DNA of 64,000 nt from Candidatus Eiseniibacteriota bacterium (GTDB lineage Bacteria > Orphanbacterota > Orphanbacteria > Orphanbacterales > Orphanbacteraceae), in NCBI GenBank assembly GCA_024276995.1, contig JAJRWB010000054.1, forward strand, positions 1 through 64,000, in the 5' to 3' direction. Positions 2 to 7,911 of the stretch are shown here, one piece after another; the stretch's first letter is position 1; each line of letters starts with the position of its first letter. The position numbers and the translations under genes were made by a program. The notes beneath the pieces are model-generated. The model was not told the DNA's origin and searched no databases. It saw only the letters and a list, made by a program, of their open reading frames with translations.

Positions 2-1024
2 AATGGCAACACGACCACCGAGGCTGATGACATCACAGTGACCGTGAGCCGCTCCGGCCTCGATGCCGGGAGCTATTCCGGAACGGTAACGGTGACGCCC
101 GCCACCGGCGATCCTCAGGATGTTTCGGTCACCCTGACCGTTTCCGGCCCCGGCCCCACGCCCGGCGGCATGGCACTCGTCCCCGCCGGCAGTTTCCAGA
201 TGGGGGGCGACCCGTCGGCGTACTGCGGGAGCGGCGAGCACCAGGTAACACTCACCCACAGTTTCTACGTCGGGCAGTACGAGGTGACGAATCAGGAGTA
301 CAAAGACGCGCTGCAGTGGGCGTACGATCGCGGCTACGTGACCGCTTCATCGTCCACGGCGCAGGACAACCTCGACGGGAGCACGGTGGAGCTGGTCGAC
401 CTGAACAGCTCGTATTGCCAGATCTCGTTCAGCTCCGGCACGTTCACCGTCGATTCGGGAAAAGAGAATTATCCCATGATCGAAGTCTCGTGGTACGGAG
501 CAGCGGCCTATTGCGACTGGCTGAGCCTACAGGCGGGGCTTTCCCGCGCGTACGACCACTCCACGTGGGAGTGCAACGGTGGGAGCCCTTACACCGCCTC
601 GGGCTACCGTCTTCCGACCGACGCGGAGTGGGAGTACGTGACCCAGGTGAACGGAGAACGGAAGTACCCGTGGGGGAACGAGAGTCCGGACTGCAACCGG
701 GCGAATTACTGGGGATGTCTCTCCGGGTCATACCCGAGAACATCAACTGTCGGCACCTACCCATCCGGAGCGGTATCGGTCAGCGGGACATTGGTGTACG
801 ATATGGCTGGAAATGTATGGGAGTGGTGCAACGACTGGCATACCTGCGATCTGGGAAGTTCGCCGGTGTCGAATCCGACCGGTCCCGGCTCCGGCTCGTA
901 TCGGGTGCTGCGCGGCGGCTCGTGGTACGACAACGAGAGCCACCTCCGCTCGGCGGTCCGGTACAGCTACATCCCGGGCAACACGTACGGCTACTTCGGG
1001 TTCCGGGTTGCCCGCAGTCATTGA
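2..1024 (+). CDS. DGR target (variable) protein: Ig-like/BACON-type repeat plus FGE-sulfatase (C-type lectin fold) domain, 5' partial
   Basis: The frame is open to the window edge, so the true start lies upstream. The first ~55 visible codons read as the end of a beta-sandwich repeat of the BACON/Ig type (GSYSGTVTVT, then VSVTLTVSG). A formylglycine-generating-enzyme/sulfatase-modifying domain follows: VPAGSFQMGG, YEVTNQEYKDAL, YRLPTDAEWEYV, YDMAGNVWEWCNDW, RVLRGGSW and GFRVARSH at the end. This C-type-lectin fold is a common DGR target, because its C-terminal surface tolerates changes. The last 43 codons coincide with the variable repeat. Such proteins are normally secreted or surface-exposed ligand binders rather than true formylglycine enzymes. 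The surface location is inferred, since the signal peptide is outside the window. Confidence 0.93.
   Translation, partial: NGNTTTEADDITVTVSRSGLDAGSYSGTVTVTPATGDPQDVSVTLTVSGPGPTPGGMALVPAGSFQMGGDPSAYCGSGEHQVTLTHSFYVGQYEVTNQEYKDALQWAYDRGYVTASSSTAQDNLDGSTVELVDLNSSYCQISFSSGTFTVDSGKENYPMIEVSWYGAAAYCDWLSLQAGLSRAYDHSTWECNGGSPYTASGYRLPTDAEWEYVTQVNGERKYPWGNESPDCNRANYWGCLSGSYPRTSTVGTYPSGAVSVSGTLVYDMAGNVWEWCNDWHTCDLGSSPVSNPTGPGSGSYRVLRGGSWYDNESHLRSAVRYSYIPGNTYGYFGFRVARSH
893..1021 (+). repeat. DGR variable repeat (VR)
   Basis: This 129-bp segment aligns without gaps to 1592-1720 (offset 699). I counted 20 mismatches, and every one lies at a TR adenine: 9 A to T, 9 A to G, 2 A to C. Changed VR positions are 911, 926, 929, 939, 941, 956, 957, 962, 966, 968, 972, 977, 978, 986, 989, 990, 992, 995, 996 and 1017. 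No C, G or T of the TR differs. This is the signature of adenine mutagenesis during DGR retrohoming. It encodes the last residues of the target protein. Confidence 0.97.
997..1016 (+). promoter_or_regulatory. Invariant 3' end of VR, likely initiation-of-mutagenic-homing (IMH) segment
   Basis: Twenty bases at the 3' end of the VR are identical to TR 1696-1715. They are G/C-rich and contain almost no adenine. In characterised DGRs the 3' border of the VR holds the IMH, where cDNA integration starts, so this is the expected place for it. The role is inferred from position. One adenine-derived change (1017) lies just past it, so the exact border is uncertain. Confidence 0.55.
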
Positions 1025-1080
1025 TTCCGGATCGGTTCTGATTTCTGTTTTGCTGTGTTCTGTATTCTGAAATCAGGGGT

Positions 1081-1101
1081 CCAGGGGGCGAAGCCCCCTG
1101 G
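1081..1101 (+). promoter_or_regulatory. Perfect 9-bp hairpin downstream of VR (DGR homing hairpin or terminator)
   Basis: CCAGGGGGC, loop GAA, GCCCCCTGG, starting 60 bp after the VR. DGR targets often have a short inverted repeat 3' of the VR that promotes homing, with a GNA/GRNA-type loop. A run of eight T follows, but nine bases after the stem, so the hairpin could also act as a terminator of the target gene. The sequence cannot separate the two roles. Confidence 0.5.
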
Positions 1102-1200
1102 TCGCCGCGAATTTTTTTTCGGCTTTTTCGGTCCATTTTGGGTGAGCTGCCAGGTTCGCTCCCCGCGGAGAGAACCCGGCGCCGATTGAGGGGGGAAAGT

Positions 1201-1584
1201 ATGGCTGTGAACGAGTCGCCGATCTTTGTCCGCACCCACGATTTTGCCGTCTGGCTTCTCGCTCACACGATCCGCTTTCCGAAGAGCCAGCGGTTCGTCA
1301 TGGCGAGACGGATCGAGGAGACGATTCTCGACTTCCAGGAGAGGCTGATCCGCGCGGCCAGAGCGAAGGGACGCGCCACGGGACGCGAGCTGCAGGAGGC
1401 GGATGTTCTCTTCGAGATCCTCCGGCGACACATCCGAACCTGCGTCGAGCTGAAGCTCTTCACATTGAAACAGTATGAATATGCCGCGGGAAGGCTGGTC
1501 GAGATCGGCCGGCTTCTCGGCGGCTGGATCGGAAAGCAGACGGAATCCACCGGGCGAAAGCAGGTGGTGGGGAGCGGTCCGTAA
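1201..1584 (+). CDS. avd: Avd-like DGR accessory protein (four-helix bundle)
   Basis: 127 aa, the usual size of Avd (accessory variability determinant). Avd is a basic helical pentamer in studied systems; it binds the DGR RT and template RNA and is needed for cDNA synthesis. The protein is helical and rich in Arg/Lys (FPKSQRFVMARRIEE, LQEADVLFEILRRHIR, YEYAAGRLVEIGRLLGGW), matching the four-helix-bundle/Avd family. I chose ATG 1201 because it follows the purine-rich GAGGGGGGAAAGT; a TTG 63 bases upstream would add an unconvincing arginine-rich extension. The gene lies between target gene and TR, the common Avd position, and ends eight bases before the TR. Confidence 0.85.
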   Translation: MAVNESPIFVRTHDFAVWLLAHTIRFPKSQRFVMARRIEETILDFQERLIRAARAKGRATGRELQEADVLFEILRRHIRTCVELKLFTLKQYEYAAGRLVEIGRLLGGWIGKQTESTGRKQVVGSGP

Positions 1585-1591
1585 AGGAGCG

Positions 1592-1720
1592 GGCTCGTAT
1601 CGGGTGCTGAGCGGCGGCTCGTGGAACAACAACGAGAACAACCTCCGCTCGGCGAACCGGAACAACAACAACCCGAACAACACGAACAACAACAACGGGT
1701 TCCGGGTTGCCCGCAATCAT
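1592..1720 (+). repeat. DGR template repeat (TR)
   Basis: This is the template for mutagenic retrohoming into the VR at 893-1021. It has 39 adenines in 129 bases, 20 of them replaced in the VR. In the reading frame of the target it carries 16 AAC codons plus one AAT (runs such as NNNN, NNTNNNN). AAC is the codon whose adenine mutagenesis reaches many residues without making a stop. In the VR, 14 of the 16 AAC codons have changed, to Y, D, S, H, V, I, G or F. The short reading frame across the TR is not a gene. Confidence 0.97.
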
Positions 1721-1939
1721 AGGCATCGCCGGATGCCGGCGGCTCAAGGGCCTCCGGACCGTGCGCGAATATGACAGGAACGTTTCCCGGTCGGCGGGAG
1801 AGTCTCCGGATCGCCGGGAACGAGTGTCCGCCGGCCGAATAGACAAGGGGGTCGTGGCGACTGGTAGGCGAGGGTCGAACGCCGTCACGATCCCGTTTTT
1901 TCAGGAGCCGACGCCGACAGGCAAAGAGGCGTAACTGAT
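1721..1939 (+). ncRNA. Spacer between TR and RT, probable 3' part of the DGR template RNA
   Basis: This is 219 bases without a convincing gene. In the Bordetella phage DGR the RNA between TR and RT is needed for priming of cDNA by the RT-Avd complex, and this stretch holds the equivalent position. It begins with a small hairpin, GGCATC-GCCG-GATGCC, at 1722-1737, directly after the TR. The purine-rich AAAGAGG at about 1923-1929 probably serves as the RT ribosome-binding site. RNA boundaries are unknown. Confidence 0.5.
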
Positions 1940-3007
1940 TTGAAGCGGGCGAAAGATCTTTTTCCGACGGTCTGCGACTTCGGGACGCTCTACGAATCAT
2001 TCCGGAGGGCAAGACGGGGGAAACGGTACAGGGAGTATGCCCTCGCCTTCGAGGCGGACCTCGAGGAGAATCTCCTCGGACTCCGGGAAGAGCTGATCGG
2101 CGGGACGTATCGGCCTTCCCCCTACAGAGTGTTCACGATTCGGGATCCGAAGCGGCGGCGGATCGCCGCGCCCTCTTTCCGCGACCGCGTCGTCCATCAC
2201 GCCTTCTGCTCGGCGGTCGAGCCGTTCTTCGAACGGGGCTACATCCACGATTCGTACGCCTGCCGACTCGGGAAGGGAACTCACAGGGCGCTCGACCGGT
2301 GCCAGGAATACGCGAGACGGTTTCCGTATGTCCTGCAATGCGATGTCCGCCGGTACTTCGCTTCCATCGACCACACGATTCTGAAAGGGGCGATCGCCCG
2401 GCGGATCGCCGATCGCCGGGTTCTCCGCCTCGCGGATACGGTACTCGATCACGCGCCGTTCGACAGGGAAGGCGCTCCCGGCTACTTCCCCGGCGACGAT
2501 CTCTTCTCGCCCCTCGACCTCCGAAGGGGGATTCCGATCGGGAGCCTCACGTCGCAGCTTTTCGCGAACCTCTATCTCGATCGCCTCGATCACTTTGTGA
2601 AAGAGGAACTGCGCGTTCACGGCTATCTCCGCTACATGGATGACTTCCTCCTCTTCGGGGAGAGCAAATCTCTCCTGAGCGACTGGCGGGAGAAGGTCCG
2701 CCGATTTCTCGAACGGCTCCGGCTCGAACTGCATCCCGGGAAGCAGCAGATCTTTCCGGTGCGTAATGGGGTTCCATTTCTGGGGTTTCATATTTTTCCC
2801 AATCGGCGCCTATTGAAGCGGGAAAACATCCGCCGGTTCGTGAAACGGATGCGAGCGTTGCGACGAGCGATCCGATCGGGGTGGAGGAGTGAAGGCGACT
2901 ACCGGACTTCTCTTCTCGCATGGATCGGACACGCCATGCACGGGGATACGTGGAGGCTGCGAACCGCTCTTCTGGGGGCGATGGCGCCGGCATTCGGAGG
3001 CGGTTGA
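1940..3007 (+). CDS. DGR-type reverse transcriptase
   Basis: 355 aa; makes the adenine-mutagenised cDNA from the TR RNA. Palm motifs are in order: QCDVRRYFASID with catalytic Asp135, then IPIGSLTSQ at 198-206, then YMDD at 232-235, then FLGFHIFPNRRLL as motif E/thumb. The IGxxxSQ form of motif 4, where other RTs have QGxxxSP, is diagnostic of DGR RTs and is tied to low fidelity at template A. The start is a TTG at 1940, nine bases after AAAGAGG; no better ATG precedes the conserved region. All catalytic residues are present, so the enzyme looks active. Confidence 0.97.
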   Translation: MKRAKDLFPTVCDFGTLYESFRRARRGKRYREYALAFEADLEENLLGLREELIGGTYRPSPYRVFTIRDPKRRRIAAPSFRDRVVHHAFCSAVEPFFERGYIHDSYACRLGKGTHRALDRCQEYARRFPYVLQCDVRRYFASIDHTILKGAIARRIADRRVLRLADTVLDHAPFDREGAPGYFPGDDLFSPLDLRRGIPIGSLTSQLFANLYLDRLDHFVKEELRVHGYLRYMDDFLLFGESKSLLSDWREKVRRFLERLRLELHPGKQQIFPVRNGVPFLGFHIFPNRRLLKRENIRRFVKRMRALRRAIRSGWRSEGDYRTSLLAWIGHAMHGDTWRLRTALLGAMAPAFGGG

Positions 3008-3081
3008 ACGCGGAGCTTCGGCCGACGGGAAGCGGCGGAACCTCGACGCAGGATCGATTCGAACCGTCCCGCGCAAACCGG

Positions 3082-3166
3082 CCAGAATTTTACCGCCGCG
3101 GCGGCGGTAAATATTCGACCACCTTGCCGATGGAGTCACGACTGAACCCGAATTCCCGAACTCGCA
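3082..3166. repeat. Palindromic dispersed element, copy 1
   Basis: The core TTTACCGCCG-CGG-CGGCGGTAAA spans 3089-3111. It is flanked by CCAGAA on the left and TTCGACCACCTTGCCGATGG on the right. About 80 bases match copy 3 (5718-5803) almost exactly. It lies directly 3' of the minus-strand MNT/HEPN remnant. A reading frame on the minus strand (EFGFSRDSIGKVVE) runs into the palindrome and stops there. Confidence 0.8.
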
Positions 3167-3189: not shown

Positions 3190-3285
3190 GCGTTCCATCT
3201 GTGTCCGATTCCGGACGAGAGCTTCCGCCTCGTCAATATGGTCCACCATCTGGCAGAGGGAAACGCTCTCTTAATGCCGCGACAT
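3190..3285 (-). pseudogene. HEPN (HepT-like, DUF86) toxin, N-terminal fragment
   Basis: A minus-strand reading begins ATG 3285 with MSRH, meets an in-frame TAA (3271-3273), then continues ESVSLCQMVDHIDEAEALV and RNRTQME before homology ends near palindromic copy 1. This resembles the first ~30 residues of HepT/DUF86 toxins, which normally overlap the end of their MNT antitoxin gene, as here. The catalytic Rx4-6HxY region is missing, so the toxin is dead. The match is judged by eye on a short stretch. Confidence 0.5.
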
Positions 3286-3571
3286 AGAGTTCCTCCGCTT
3301 CCCGCAGGACCTCATCCCGGAAATACTTGCTCAGGCTGCCGGGTGTGTGCAGGTCCACCGAGCGCCCGAGGATGATCGAAAGCTCGTCCTGCATGCGAAT
3401 AAACGCCAATCCGACCCGCACGCCGGGCTGGAACTCGACCAGAATATCTACGTCGCTATCGGGCCGGAAGTCATCGCGGAGAATGGAGCCAAAAAGTGCC
3501 AGCCGGCGAACGCCGTTCGCCCGGCAAAACGCCTCGATCCGCTTTCTTGATATCTCGATGGGGTGTTGCAC
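3233..3571 (-). CDS. MNT-type nucleotidyltransferase (MntA-like antitoxin)
   Basis: 112 aa minimal nucleotidyltransferase. The motif LFGSILRDDFRPDSDVDILV carries the GS and DxD metal-binding signature of the MNT fold. In HEPN/MNT toxin-antitoxin pairs this enzyme AMPylates and silences the HEPN RNase. I chose GTG 3571, preceded by GGAGGGG at proper spacing, over a longer start at 3616. The C-terminal tail (LPDGGPY) overlaps the broken HEPN fragment. With no intact toxin beside it, the gene is probably an orphan or a decaying module. Confidence 0.8.
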   Translation of the reverse strand: MQHPIEISRKRIEAFCRANGVRRLALFGSILRDDFRPDSDVDILVEFQPGVRVGLAFIRMQDELSIILGRSVDLHTPGSLSKYFRDEVLREAEELYVAALRERFPLPDGGPY

Positions 3572-3809
3572 GACAGATCCCCTCCCTGCTCGGCCGGTCG
3601 CTTCAGAACCCCTCACAGTGTCGCATATTCAATACCACCGGACAAGAGGCTGATCACCGACGCGCAAAGGAGGCACATCTTCAGTCATTGAGTCTGCGAC
3701 GAGTTTTTCGCTTTGTCGGGTGAATGAGGATCGGCTCGGAAGATTGAAAATCGAAGATCAAGTGTGTGATCCTTAGCTTGCCTGAAGCAATATGATGTGT
3801 AGGAAGTGA

Positions 3810-3898: not shown

Positions 3899-5209
3899 TC
3901 ACACCGACCCGCTGCGGGTGGCGGCCGCTGCGAAGTAGAGTGGCAGGAACGTGAGCTTCTTCCCGGGAAGTTCGCCGTACGGCCTGGACGAGAAGACCAG
4001 GCCGCCCCTGCAGTTCGGATATCTTTCGAGCAGCCCGTGAAGGCTTCTCAACCGCCCTGCCGGACCACTCTTCACTTCTACTCCATAGATACCCCCTTTC
4101 ACGACGGCGAGGTAGTCGGTTTCAGCGGCACTTCCCCTCGCTTCCCGTGACCAGTAGAAGAGATTGGAGTCGTGGCAGGTCAGCATTTCCTGTCCGACAA
4201 ATTGCTCGGCCATCGCGCCGCGATAGATGTCAAGCAGATCACGTTTCCCATATTCGATGTCGGCGCGTATCCCACAGAGGTGCTGCCATAAGCCGACATC
4301 GACCAGGATCGCCTTGAATCTTTTCGACGACGCTTTCGCACCGAGCGGCAGGCCGGAAGGGCTCGCAGAGGGAATGCGCGTGACCACGCGCGCCTTGCAC
4401 AGAAGATCGAACGCGCGTTTGATTGTCGTGTGGGAATGCCCGTCCGCAAGGTTGGAATATTTGAGCTGCTGTCCAACATTCTGCGCAATCCCGCTCAGTG
4501 TAGTGCCCATGCAGTACGGATCGGCGCGCGGGGCATATTTGGAAAAGTCCTGGCGGTAGGCATCGACAAGCTCGGCATGAATGGCGAACGCCTCCTGAAT
4601 CGATCCGCTTTCCGCGTAGGTTCTAACCGCCTCCGGCATTCCCCCCACAAAGCAATAGGTCCTGAGTTCTTCCAGAAGCATCGCGTGAATCGCATCGGAA
4701 ACAGGTCCGGGTCTCCCGGTGACCACATCAGCAGCCTTCTCCTTTCCCACAGCCCACAAGTACTCGGGAAAGCTCATCGGATACAGATCGAGCGATTGAA
4801 TACGGCCTACGGGAAAAGCTGTTTCCGCGAACGCGAATTCGAGCAGCGAACCGGCAGCCACAACATGGAGTCCGGGGATCTCCTCGTAGAAGTAGCGAAG
4901 GGCGGTGATGGCGCGGGGACAACTCTGAATTTCATCCAGGAAGAGGAGCGTACCTCCGGGGACAATTTTCCTGTTGGTCAAGACCTCAAGTTCAGAGACG
5001 AGCGATTTCGCCTCCAGGTTGCCCTTAAAAACGCGGTGCCATTCCCGATTCCGTTCCAGATCGACCGTGACGACCGAATCGAATTGATCCCGGGCGAACT
5101 GGAGGAGTGAGTATGTCTTCCCCACCTGTCGTGCTCCACGCAGGAGCAACGGTTTACGACGCTCGGCTCTCTTCCAGTCGATCAGACGCTCTTCGATCAT
5201 TCTTCTCAT
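3899..5209 (-). CDS. AAA ATPase of the AAA_14/DUF4143 family
   Basis: 436 aa. The N-terminal ATPase half has Walker A (LRGARQVGKTYSL, residues ~22-34) and Walker B (GGTLLFLDEIQ). The C-terminal DUF4143 half resembles a PD-(D/E)XK nuclease fold: FYWSREARGSAAETDYLAV, then YGVEVKSG. This E-D-ExK-like arrangement is typical of the family. These proteins are widespread in accessory DNA; their cellular role is not established, though toxin-like or defence-like roles have been suggested. The length is normal for the family and the gene looks intact. A strong minus-strand promoter lies 55-83 bases upstream of the start. Confidence 0.85.
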   Translation of the reverse strand: MRRMIEERLIDWKRAERRKPLLLRGARQVGKTYSLLQFARDQFDSVVTVDLERNREWHRVFKGNLEAKSLVSELEVLTNRKIVPGGTLLFLDEIQSCPRAITALRYFYEEIPGLHVVAAGSLLEFAFAETAFPVGRIQSLDLYPMSFPEYLWAVGKEKAADVVTGRPGPVSDAIHAMLLEELRTYCFVGGMPEAVRTYAESGSIQEAFAIHAELVDAYRQDFSKYAPRADPYCMGTTLSGIAQNVGQQLKYSNLADGHSHTTIKRAFDLLCKARVVTRIPSASPSGLPLGAKASSKRFKAILVDVGLWQHLCGIRADIEYGKRDLLDIYRGAMAEQFVGQEMLTCHDSNLFYWSREARGSAAETDYLAVVKGGIYGVEVKSGPAGRLRSLHGLLERYPNCRGGLVFSSRPYGELPGKKLTFLPLYFAAAATRSGSV

Positions 5210-5717: not shown

Positions 5718-5803
5718 GACCAGAATTCTACCGCCGCCGCGGCGGTAAATCTTCGACCACCTTGCCGATGGAGTCACGACTGGACCCGAATTCCTGAGTC
5801 CGC
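5718..5803. repeat. Palindromic dispersed element, copy 3
   Basis: The core TACCGCCG-CCG-CGGCGGTA is at 5729-5747. The left flank is GACCAGAATTC; the right flank TTCGACCACCTTGCCGATGG continues through GAGTCACGACTG and ACCCGAATTCC. It is nearly identical to copy 1 over ~80 bases and also lies at the 3' side of a minus-strand HEPN fragment. Confidence 0.8.
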
Positions 5804-6256: not shown

Positions 6257-7911
6257 ATGCGCACGAACCGCGGTTCCACTGCTGACCCGCAAGGACTGCC
6301 CGCTGCCGTAGCCACCACGAACCCGGAAGAGCTGAGCGCCGCGCCGGCTGCCGGCGGGCGAAAACCGGCCAACGCCGCTGCCACTCTTGACATGCGAAAG
6401 TTGACCGCCACCGCCGCTTACCTCTCGGAAGAGAGCGATCACCAGATCGCCCGGAAGCTCCAATCTCTCTCCCGGTCGGAGCGGCGGATCACCCTGGAAA
6501 TCCTCCTCCACCTGATCGAAGCTGAGAAGCGGAAGCTCCACGTGAAGAAGGGTACCGGTCTCTTTTCGACTTCTGCACGCGCGGACTTCGCTACTCGGAG
6601 TCGGCCGCCGGAAGGAGAATCGCCGCGGCCCGCTCCGTGAGGAACTACCCGAAGGTGCTCGCCCTTCTCCTTTCGGGCGAACTCACTGTCTGTTCTCTCT
6701 CGGCCGTTTCCCGGATTCTGACGCGCGAGAATCACGAAGACGTGATCTCGAGGGTGAAGGGAAAGACAAGGAGGGAGATCGACCAAGTGATTGCGGAGTT
6801 TCGGCCGGTCTCAGCGGTGCGCGAAGTGGTCAAGCCTGTGGTGATCCGCGCCGTCGCGAAATCGAAAACGGTGACAGGCGACGGCTCGTCGGCGGAAGAT
6901 TTGTCTGAACCATCCAACGCGAAGCGACCAGAAATTTACCGCCGCGGCGGCGGCAAATTCTTAGCCACCGCTCTCCCGACTGCGACGACATCCGGAACTC
7001 CATACGCAGCGGTACCGGGCGATGCAATAACATCTGCAACAGTAGACGGCGATTCGAGTGGGGACCACGATGAAGCCGACGGCGACGGGCGCGGTGAGCC
7101 GAAGGGAGACTCGAATCTCAAGCATCGGTTCAAGATTGAGTTTGCCGCGGACGGCGAATTCGTGGGCAACATGGAGAAGATCCGTTCGCTCCTTTCGGGT
7201 CGGTTTCCCGCGGGAGTTTCGATGGAGAAACTCTTCGGCATCGTGATGGACGATTACCTCGACCGGCATTCGTCCGCGAAGCGGAATGAAAGAAGGAAGT
7301 GCCGCGAGGAGAGAGCGATGATTGCGCGAAACGAATGTCAATCGATCGCGGGAGAGATGGCACGGTCACAGCGTAGAGAAAGAGAGCAAAGGAGAGACGG
7401 GGGGAAGACGGCAGAGGAAGTGGGCGTGAGGGAGAGAGCGAAAGGGTTGTAACGGCGAGCGAGGGGAGGCAGAGAGGGAAAAACCGACGGCGGGAAGGTC
7501 TCTTCGCCCGCCGACGATCGGGCGCCGAAGGGGAGAGGCCGCGCCCGACATATTCCCGCCGCGATCCGGGACGACGTTTACGTGCGGGACGGTGGGCGGT
7601 GCACATGGGTCGGGCAGGACGGACGGAAGTGCGGCTCGACGTGGGATCTGGAGATCGACCACATTCACCCCTTCGCCCTCGGGGGAAATCATTCGATCGA
7701 CAACCTGCGGCTCCTCTGCTCAGCGCACAACCGGTTCGAAGGGGAGAGACGTTTCAGCGACCGGTGTTCGGAAGGGGGGGGCGTGTACACGGTTCATCAG
7801 CGACGAGTCGTGCCGGCGGGAGGGGGGAAGACGCGCCTCCGTGGCGGGATCGCCTTTCGATCCGGAGGCGTACCGGGTTTACCGGGTGAGCCTTCCCGCG
7901 CTTCGTGGTAG
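6257..7911 (+). pseudogene. HNH endonuclease gene (DUF222-like N-terminus), broken by a frameshift and a stop
   Basis: Three collinear pieces make one protein of the HNH-signature family common in mobile DNA. The first frame covers the helical N-terminal region (YLSEESDHQIARKLQSLSR) up to ~6567. There the frame shifts by one: CTCTTTT precedes GAC TTC TGC ACG, which restores FCTRGLRYSESAAGRR. The second frame runs to an in-frame TAA at 7450-7452 and resumes in the same frame as RHIPAAIRDDVYVRDGGRC, then the HNH core DLEIDHIHPFALGGNHSIDN and LRLLCSAHN. Palindromic copy 4 sits in frame inside the linker. ATG 6257 follows GGAGGAGGAA. As read the gene is inactive unless the two lesions are sequence errors. 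Confidence 0.8.
6929..6966. repeat. Palindromic dispersed element, copy 4, inside the HNH gene
   Basis: TTTACCGCCG-CGG-CGGCGGCAAA at 6935-6957, one stem mismatch, flanked by CGACCAGAAA on the left and TTCTTAGCCACC on the right. It is read in frame as YRRGGGKF within the variable linker of the HNH protein, so its length adds whole codons. Confidence 0.7.

Follow-up and report, generated by a model that had tools for sequence, protein, structure and literature searches.

Diversity-generating retroelements (DGRs) form a large class, with more than 30,000 catalogued members (PMC8144416). Multi-target DGRs that diversify FGE proteins have been described in Treponema denticola. The tvpA system of this bacterium (PMC4891356; structure 2y3c) comprises FGE/C-type-lectin targets with a C-terminal VR, lipoprotein or signal-bearing N-termini, an Asn-rich TR, and one core target accompanied by remote ones, up to 8 targets in total. 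Its accessory gene lies between the TR and the reverse transcriptase (RT) gene. The DGR of Bordetella phage BPP-1 (mtd-avd-TR-brt) is phage-borne and acts on the Mtd protein. In phage DGRs the VR is followed, at a distance of 4-34 bp, by a hairpin with a GRNA tetraloop (PMC3240598). At AAC repeats bRT has been proposed to slip, and inserted stretches whose length is divisible by three have been put down to this slippage (PMC12875486). DGR-diversified C-terminal FGE domains are also found in STAND/NACHT or kinase-FGE conflict systems (PMC10907252), whose proteins have extra domains.

We analyzed a window of 64,000 nucleotides (bases 1-64000 of the 112.8-kb contig C36) from a bacterial genome of 3.76 Mb in 81 contigs, which is 96% complete. 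The locus at the beginning of the window is a complete, conventional bacterial DGR in which the binding surface of a protein with a lectin fold is diversified. We estimate the probability at about 96% that it is a chromosomal, cellular DGR working by mutagenic retrohoming and serving a cis target as well as one or more trans targets on a separate contig. Its parts follow each other as target(VR)-avd-TR-RT, which is the classic BPP-1 gene order (Table 1). The original prediction of a complete DGR agrees with every available sequence test, and all of the parts were found in the predicted order; "complete" holds for the mechanism and fails for the target gene, which is cut by the contig end. Judging by these data, the DGR is genuine and apparently intact. 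Downstream of it are genes for a nucleotidyltransferase and an AAA_14/DUF4143 ATPase, remnants of HNH-type genes, and then a rimO-like gene, polA, coaE, and a release factor gene. No phage genes were recognized beside the DGR, and we therefore regard its setting as chromosomal.

Table 1. Positions of the DGR parts in the window and of related elements on other contigs
Feature	Location	Position	Strand	Description
Target gene	window	2..1024	+	FGE-sulfatase/C-type-lectin-fold protein, at least 340 aa; 5' end missing; VR at the C-terminus
VR1	window	893..1021	+	last 43 codons of the target, ending just before TGA; 129-nt direct repeat with TR
Post-VR inverted repeat	window	1081..1101		CCAGGGGGC-GAA-GCCCCCTGG; candidate DGR hairpin/cruciform; starts 60 nt after VR1
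avd	window	1201..1584	+	accessory protein, 127 aa from ATG 1201
TR	window	1592..1720	+	39 adenines, none of them in codon position 3; 17 Asn codons; stop codon unreachable
TR-RT spacer	window	1721..1939	+	probably a folded section of the TR RNA; z -3.1 for the RNA fold of 1585-1945
DGR reverse transcriptase	window	1940..3007	+	355 aa, TTG start, stop-free ORF, IPIGSLTSQ and YMDD
VR2	C49	337-467		second VR
DGR of genome G003 (L122)	G003:C8	8033-10471 and 12726-14321	-	order VR-avd-RT-TR
Locus L123 of genome G003	G003:C17	100-3994		NACHT-FGE protein, then DGR-type RT (L099)

VR1 is 84% identical to the TR. In a base-by-base comparison all 20 mismatches fall on TR adenines (A to T in nine cases, A to G in nine, and A to C in two). 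The chance of all 20 falling on the 39 adenines among 129 positions is about 5e-13. The predicted number of Asn codons in the TR proved right: there are 16 AAC and one AAT, and 15 of these 17 codons are altered in VR1. No change at these adenines can create a stop codon, and about 1e23 protein variants are possible through the 22 codons affected. The spacer between the TR and the RT gene is probably a structured part of the TR RNA, like the initiation region in BPP-1 (PMC12875486). The window has no match to Rfam families.

The target matches Pfam family PF03781 (E 2.3e-44). According to Foldseek, its AlphaFold2 model (mean pLDDT 84.4) resembles FGEs and also TvpA, a variable protein of a DGR (2y3c, E 3.3e-17). 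This supports the lectin-fold, FGE part of the original prediction. The suggested BACON-like domain did not find support: residues 1-60 have no Pfam match to BACON even at E<=5, and a fuller gene could show one, the N-terminus being incomplete. VR1 coincides with the segment that bears the active-site Cys pair in true FGEs (GGS(F/Y)xCHxSYC). The catalytic pair is absent from the target, its first Cys being aligned to Asp and the second falling in a gap; because of this loss we read the protein, most likely, as a binding scaffold without an enzymatic role. It may serve as a variable surface binder. Secretion of this target is not readable from the window because contig C36 starts inside the gene, and searches of the genome found no contig that joins the start of C36.

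The original prediction had also suggested looking for further VRs elsewhere in the genome, and a whole-genome search with the TR revealed one on contig C49 (VR2, E 5e-26). Compared with the TR it has 24 substitutions on adenines and one further difference at a non-A position, the final base. VR2 also carries one GGC insertion (3 nt) that can be placed within an AAC AAC AAC run, i.e., an insertion of the kind expected from AAC-repeat slippage. Applied to C49 alone, the ungapped scan for TR/VR pairs misses VR2 because of this insertion and because the TR is in trans. The sites altered in VR1 and those altered in VR2, relative to the TR, overlap without coinciding: 11 are shared, of which seven have the same base and four different bases.

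Contig C49 begins inside an FGE gene, and VR2 belongs to what is the 3' half of one further FGE target or of two. The ends of contigs C43 and C55, which hold the 5' parts of two different FGE targets, both match the initial 141 nt of C49 without a single difference, and the identity stops right after this stretch. Inspected by eye, the N-terminus is signal-peptide-like in the C43 target and that of a possible lipoprotein (FLFQGC) in the C55 target. The simplest reading is that there are three targets in all, with an unresolved repeat in the assembly. It is quite improbable that the two 5' halves really share the single VR half on C49, i.e., that N-terminal anchors are swapped onto one hypervariable head. 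If this were true, anchor swapping would add module shuffling to point diversification. NTPase, kinase, and protease domains are absent from the targets of this genome, which show only the FGE domain and a short N-terminal segment (the N-terminus of the window target is incomplete).

The accessory protein scores 90.5 bits with NF033474 (DivGenRetAVD), above the curated NCBIfam cut-off of 80, and 60.7 bits with PF22296 (bAvd), in line with the Avd-like gene of the original prediction. The RT, for its part, could in principle be a group II intron maturase, a retron, or a defence RT that lies beside a repeat by chance. Its top RT match in NCBIfam is indeed group_II_RT_mat (156 bits), but this score is far under the cut-off of 300, and the matches included no DGR RT model to compare it with. 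The best PDB sequence match is 8ub7 "Reverse transcriptase" (E 8.8e-50, 173 bits), which we take to be the BPP-1 DGR RT, versus 95.7 bits for the best group II RT. Both motifs predicted for a DGR-class RT, IGSLTSQ and YMDD, are present in an intact ORF; the longer form, IPIGSLTSQ, is common to BPP-1 Brt and differs from QGxxxSP of group II RTs. In a tree of 86 rows rooted on group II RTs, our RT is inside the DGR clade (SH-aLRT 99 versus group II and Cas RTs), so that a placement outside this clade, the check proposed along with the prediction, did not emerge. We consider a non-DGR origin of the RT extremely improbable. Within the tree the RT adjoins those of cellular DGRs of Chloroflexota (SH-aLRT 91), and its identity to any other row is at most 52%. 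Phage relatives are more distant, with 33% identity for BPP-1 and at most 41% for the others listed. The same ungapped scan found an A-biased TR/VR pair in 63 of 89 loci, nearly all of them loci of RT relatives. The locus could also be a true DGR that is now inactive, with old VR differences and a static cassette. Frameshifted HNH-type remnants crowd its 3' side (3001-3138 and 6314-7626), which is a sign of local decay; against this, the RT and avd ORFs are intact, each VR1/TR difference is still on an adenine, and the 90 non-A sites show no background mutations. Drift after a shutdown would bring non-A differences, so their absence in VR1 counts against inactivity, which we find unlikely. The pattern suggests that the DGR may have been active recently.

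The predicted post-VR hairpin was found as well, and it is here that the points counted against a DGR explanation arise. The inverted repeat is about 60 nt from the VR and has a GAA triloop, outside the 4-34 bp distance and the GRNA loop known for phage DGRs (PMC3240598), and the stem after VR2 is imperfect (DNA fold z -0.5, compared with about -3.5 for the strong hairpin after VR1). The repeat might be a mere transcription terminator common to paralogous genes. A run of eight T soon after the VR1 stem fits this explanation, and the two targets are conserved throughout the 3' region, including the stretch directly after each VR, so that the hairpin could have come by duplication. However, some 10 nt separate the stem from the T run, the run is absent at VR2, and a terminator scan makes no call for the repeat. 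The hairpin core GGGGCGAAGCCCC occurs only twice in the 3.76-Mb genome, and each copy follows a VR at a distance of about 60 nt. Simple hairpins follow the VRs of relatives in about 28% of cases (discounting two artefacts from N runs, L018 and L019) versus 4% in random stretches of the same loci, i.e., about 6-7 times more commonly. The GAA triloop also occurs in some cellular relatives, e.g., at +62 in L037 and at +42 in L024. On balance a plain terminator is a rather unlikely explanation, and a role of the hairpin in homing is plausible. We uphold the reading of the locus as a DGR because of the A-only TR/VR differences, the Avd match, the motif and the phylogenetic position of the RT, the FGE target with a C-terminal VR, and the candidate post-VR hairpin.

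In such a DGR, an RNA spanning avd, TR, and spacer would be copied by a complex of RT and Avd, with random bases placed opposite template adenines during copying. Aided by the post-VR hairpin, the resulting cDNA would then take the place of the VR with which the genes of the FGE/C-type-lectin targets end. Homing would reach both VRs, serving the cis target and one or more trans targets on a separate contig.

In its design, with FGE targets in cis and at remote sites, the system matches T. denticola tvpA (PMC4891356), and it leaves the understanding of DGRs unchanged. The C-terminal VR, the signal-bearing or lipoprotein N-termini, and the Asn-rich TR are likewise shared with tvpA; the position of avd, before the TR, is different. 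No close relationship of the RT or the host to the T. denticola system was found. With BPP-1 the locus shares the order target-avd-TR-spacer-RT, the IPIGSLTSQ motif, and, as a candidate, a post-VR hairpin, but it is chromosomal and has an FGE target, and its hairpin is further from the VR and differs in the loop. The Chloroflexota DGRs (e.g., L015, L017, L014, and L022) have the nearest RTs and also FGE targets, whereas their TRs, where found, are 373-521 nt downstream of the RT gene and not between avd and RT. The novelty lies in the rarity of the host's lineage and in the additional target genes, at least one or two, that the genome has at other places; a complete multi-target DGR is thereby added from a rarely sampled bacterial phylum.

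Seven genomes of this phylum, all from one family, were in our set, and two of them carry DGR parts. The PolA encoded in the window is only about 43-47% identical to its best full-length matches in named relatives, which come from several phyla. In the second one, G003, all 19 TR/VR differences are at A sites and the TR is 71% identical to that of the window, while the RT is only 42% identical. The target of this DGR (L122) is a kinase-Ig-FGE protein encoded beside a PP2C-like phosphatase, as judged by eye. The avd match at L122 contains an in-frame TGA. Another G003 locus, L123, encodes a NACHT-FGE protein and a DGR-type RT, and a search of 12 kb at this locus gave no TR copy. We group these kinase and NACHT loci with the conflict systems mentioned above (PMC10907252); the targets of the window genome share with such systems the DGR-diversified C-terminal FGE domain and show none of the extra domains. 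Thus, within a single family, one scaffold occurs in combination with different partners.

Several other genes adjoin the DGR. The nucleotidyltransferase is MntA/PDC-S09-like (3233-3616, minus strand), and the AAA_14/DUF4143 ATPase corresponds to PDC-S01 (3899-5209, minus strand). The HNH-type gene family is present at three loci of the genome, in addition to the fragment at the 3' end of the RT gene: the frameshifted copy 3 kb downstream of the RT, a copy on contig C77, and one on C55 (L092, 1250-2494), which precedes the remote target there by about 1 kb. We rejected the HNH gene as a general DGR accessory, since no homologue lies beside any RT relative. The palindrome TACCGCCGCNGCGGCGGTA has three exact copies in the genome, at positions 3091-3109 and 5729-5747 of the window and 1822-1840 of C55. 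It is inside the HNH-type gene on C55 and, at position 3091 of the window, inside the HNH-type remnant.
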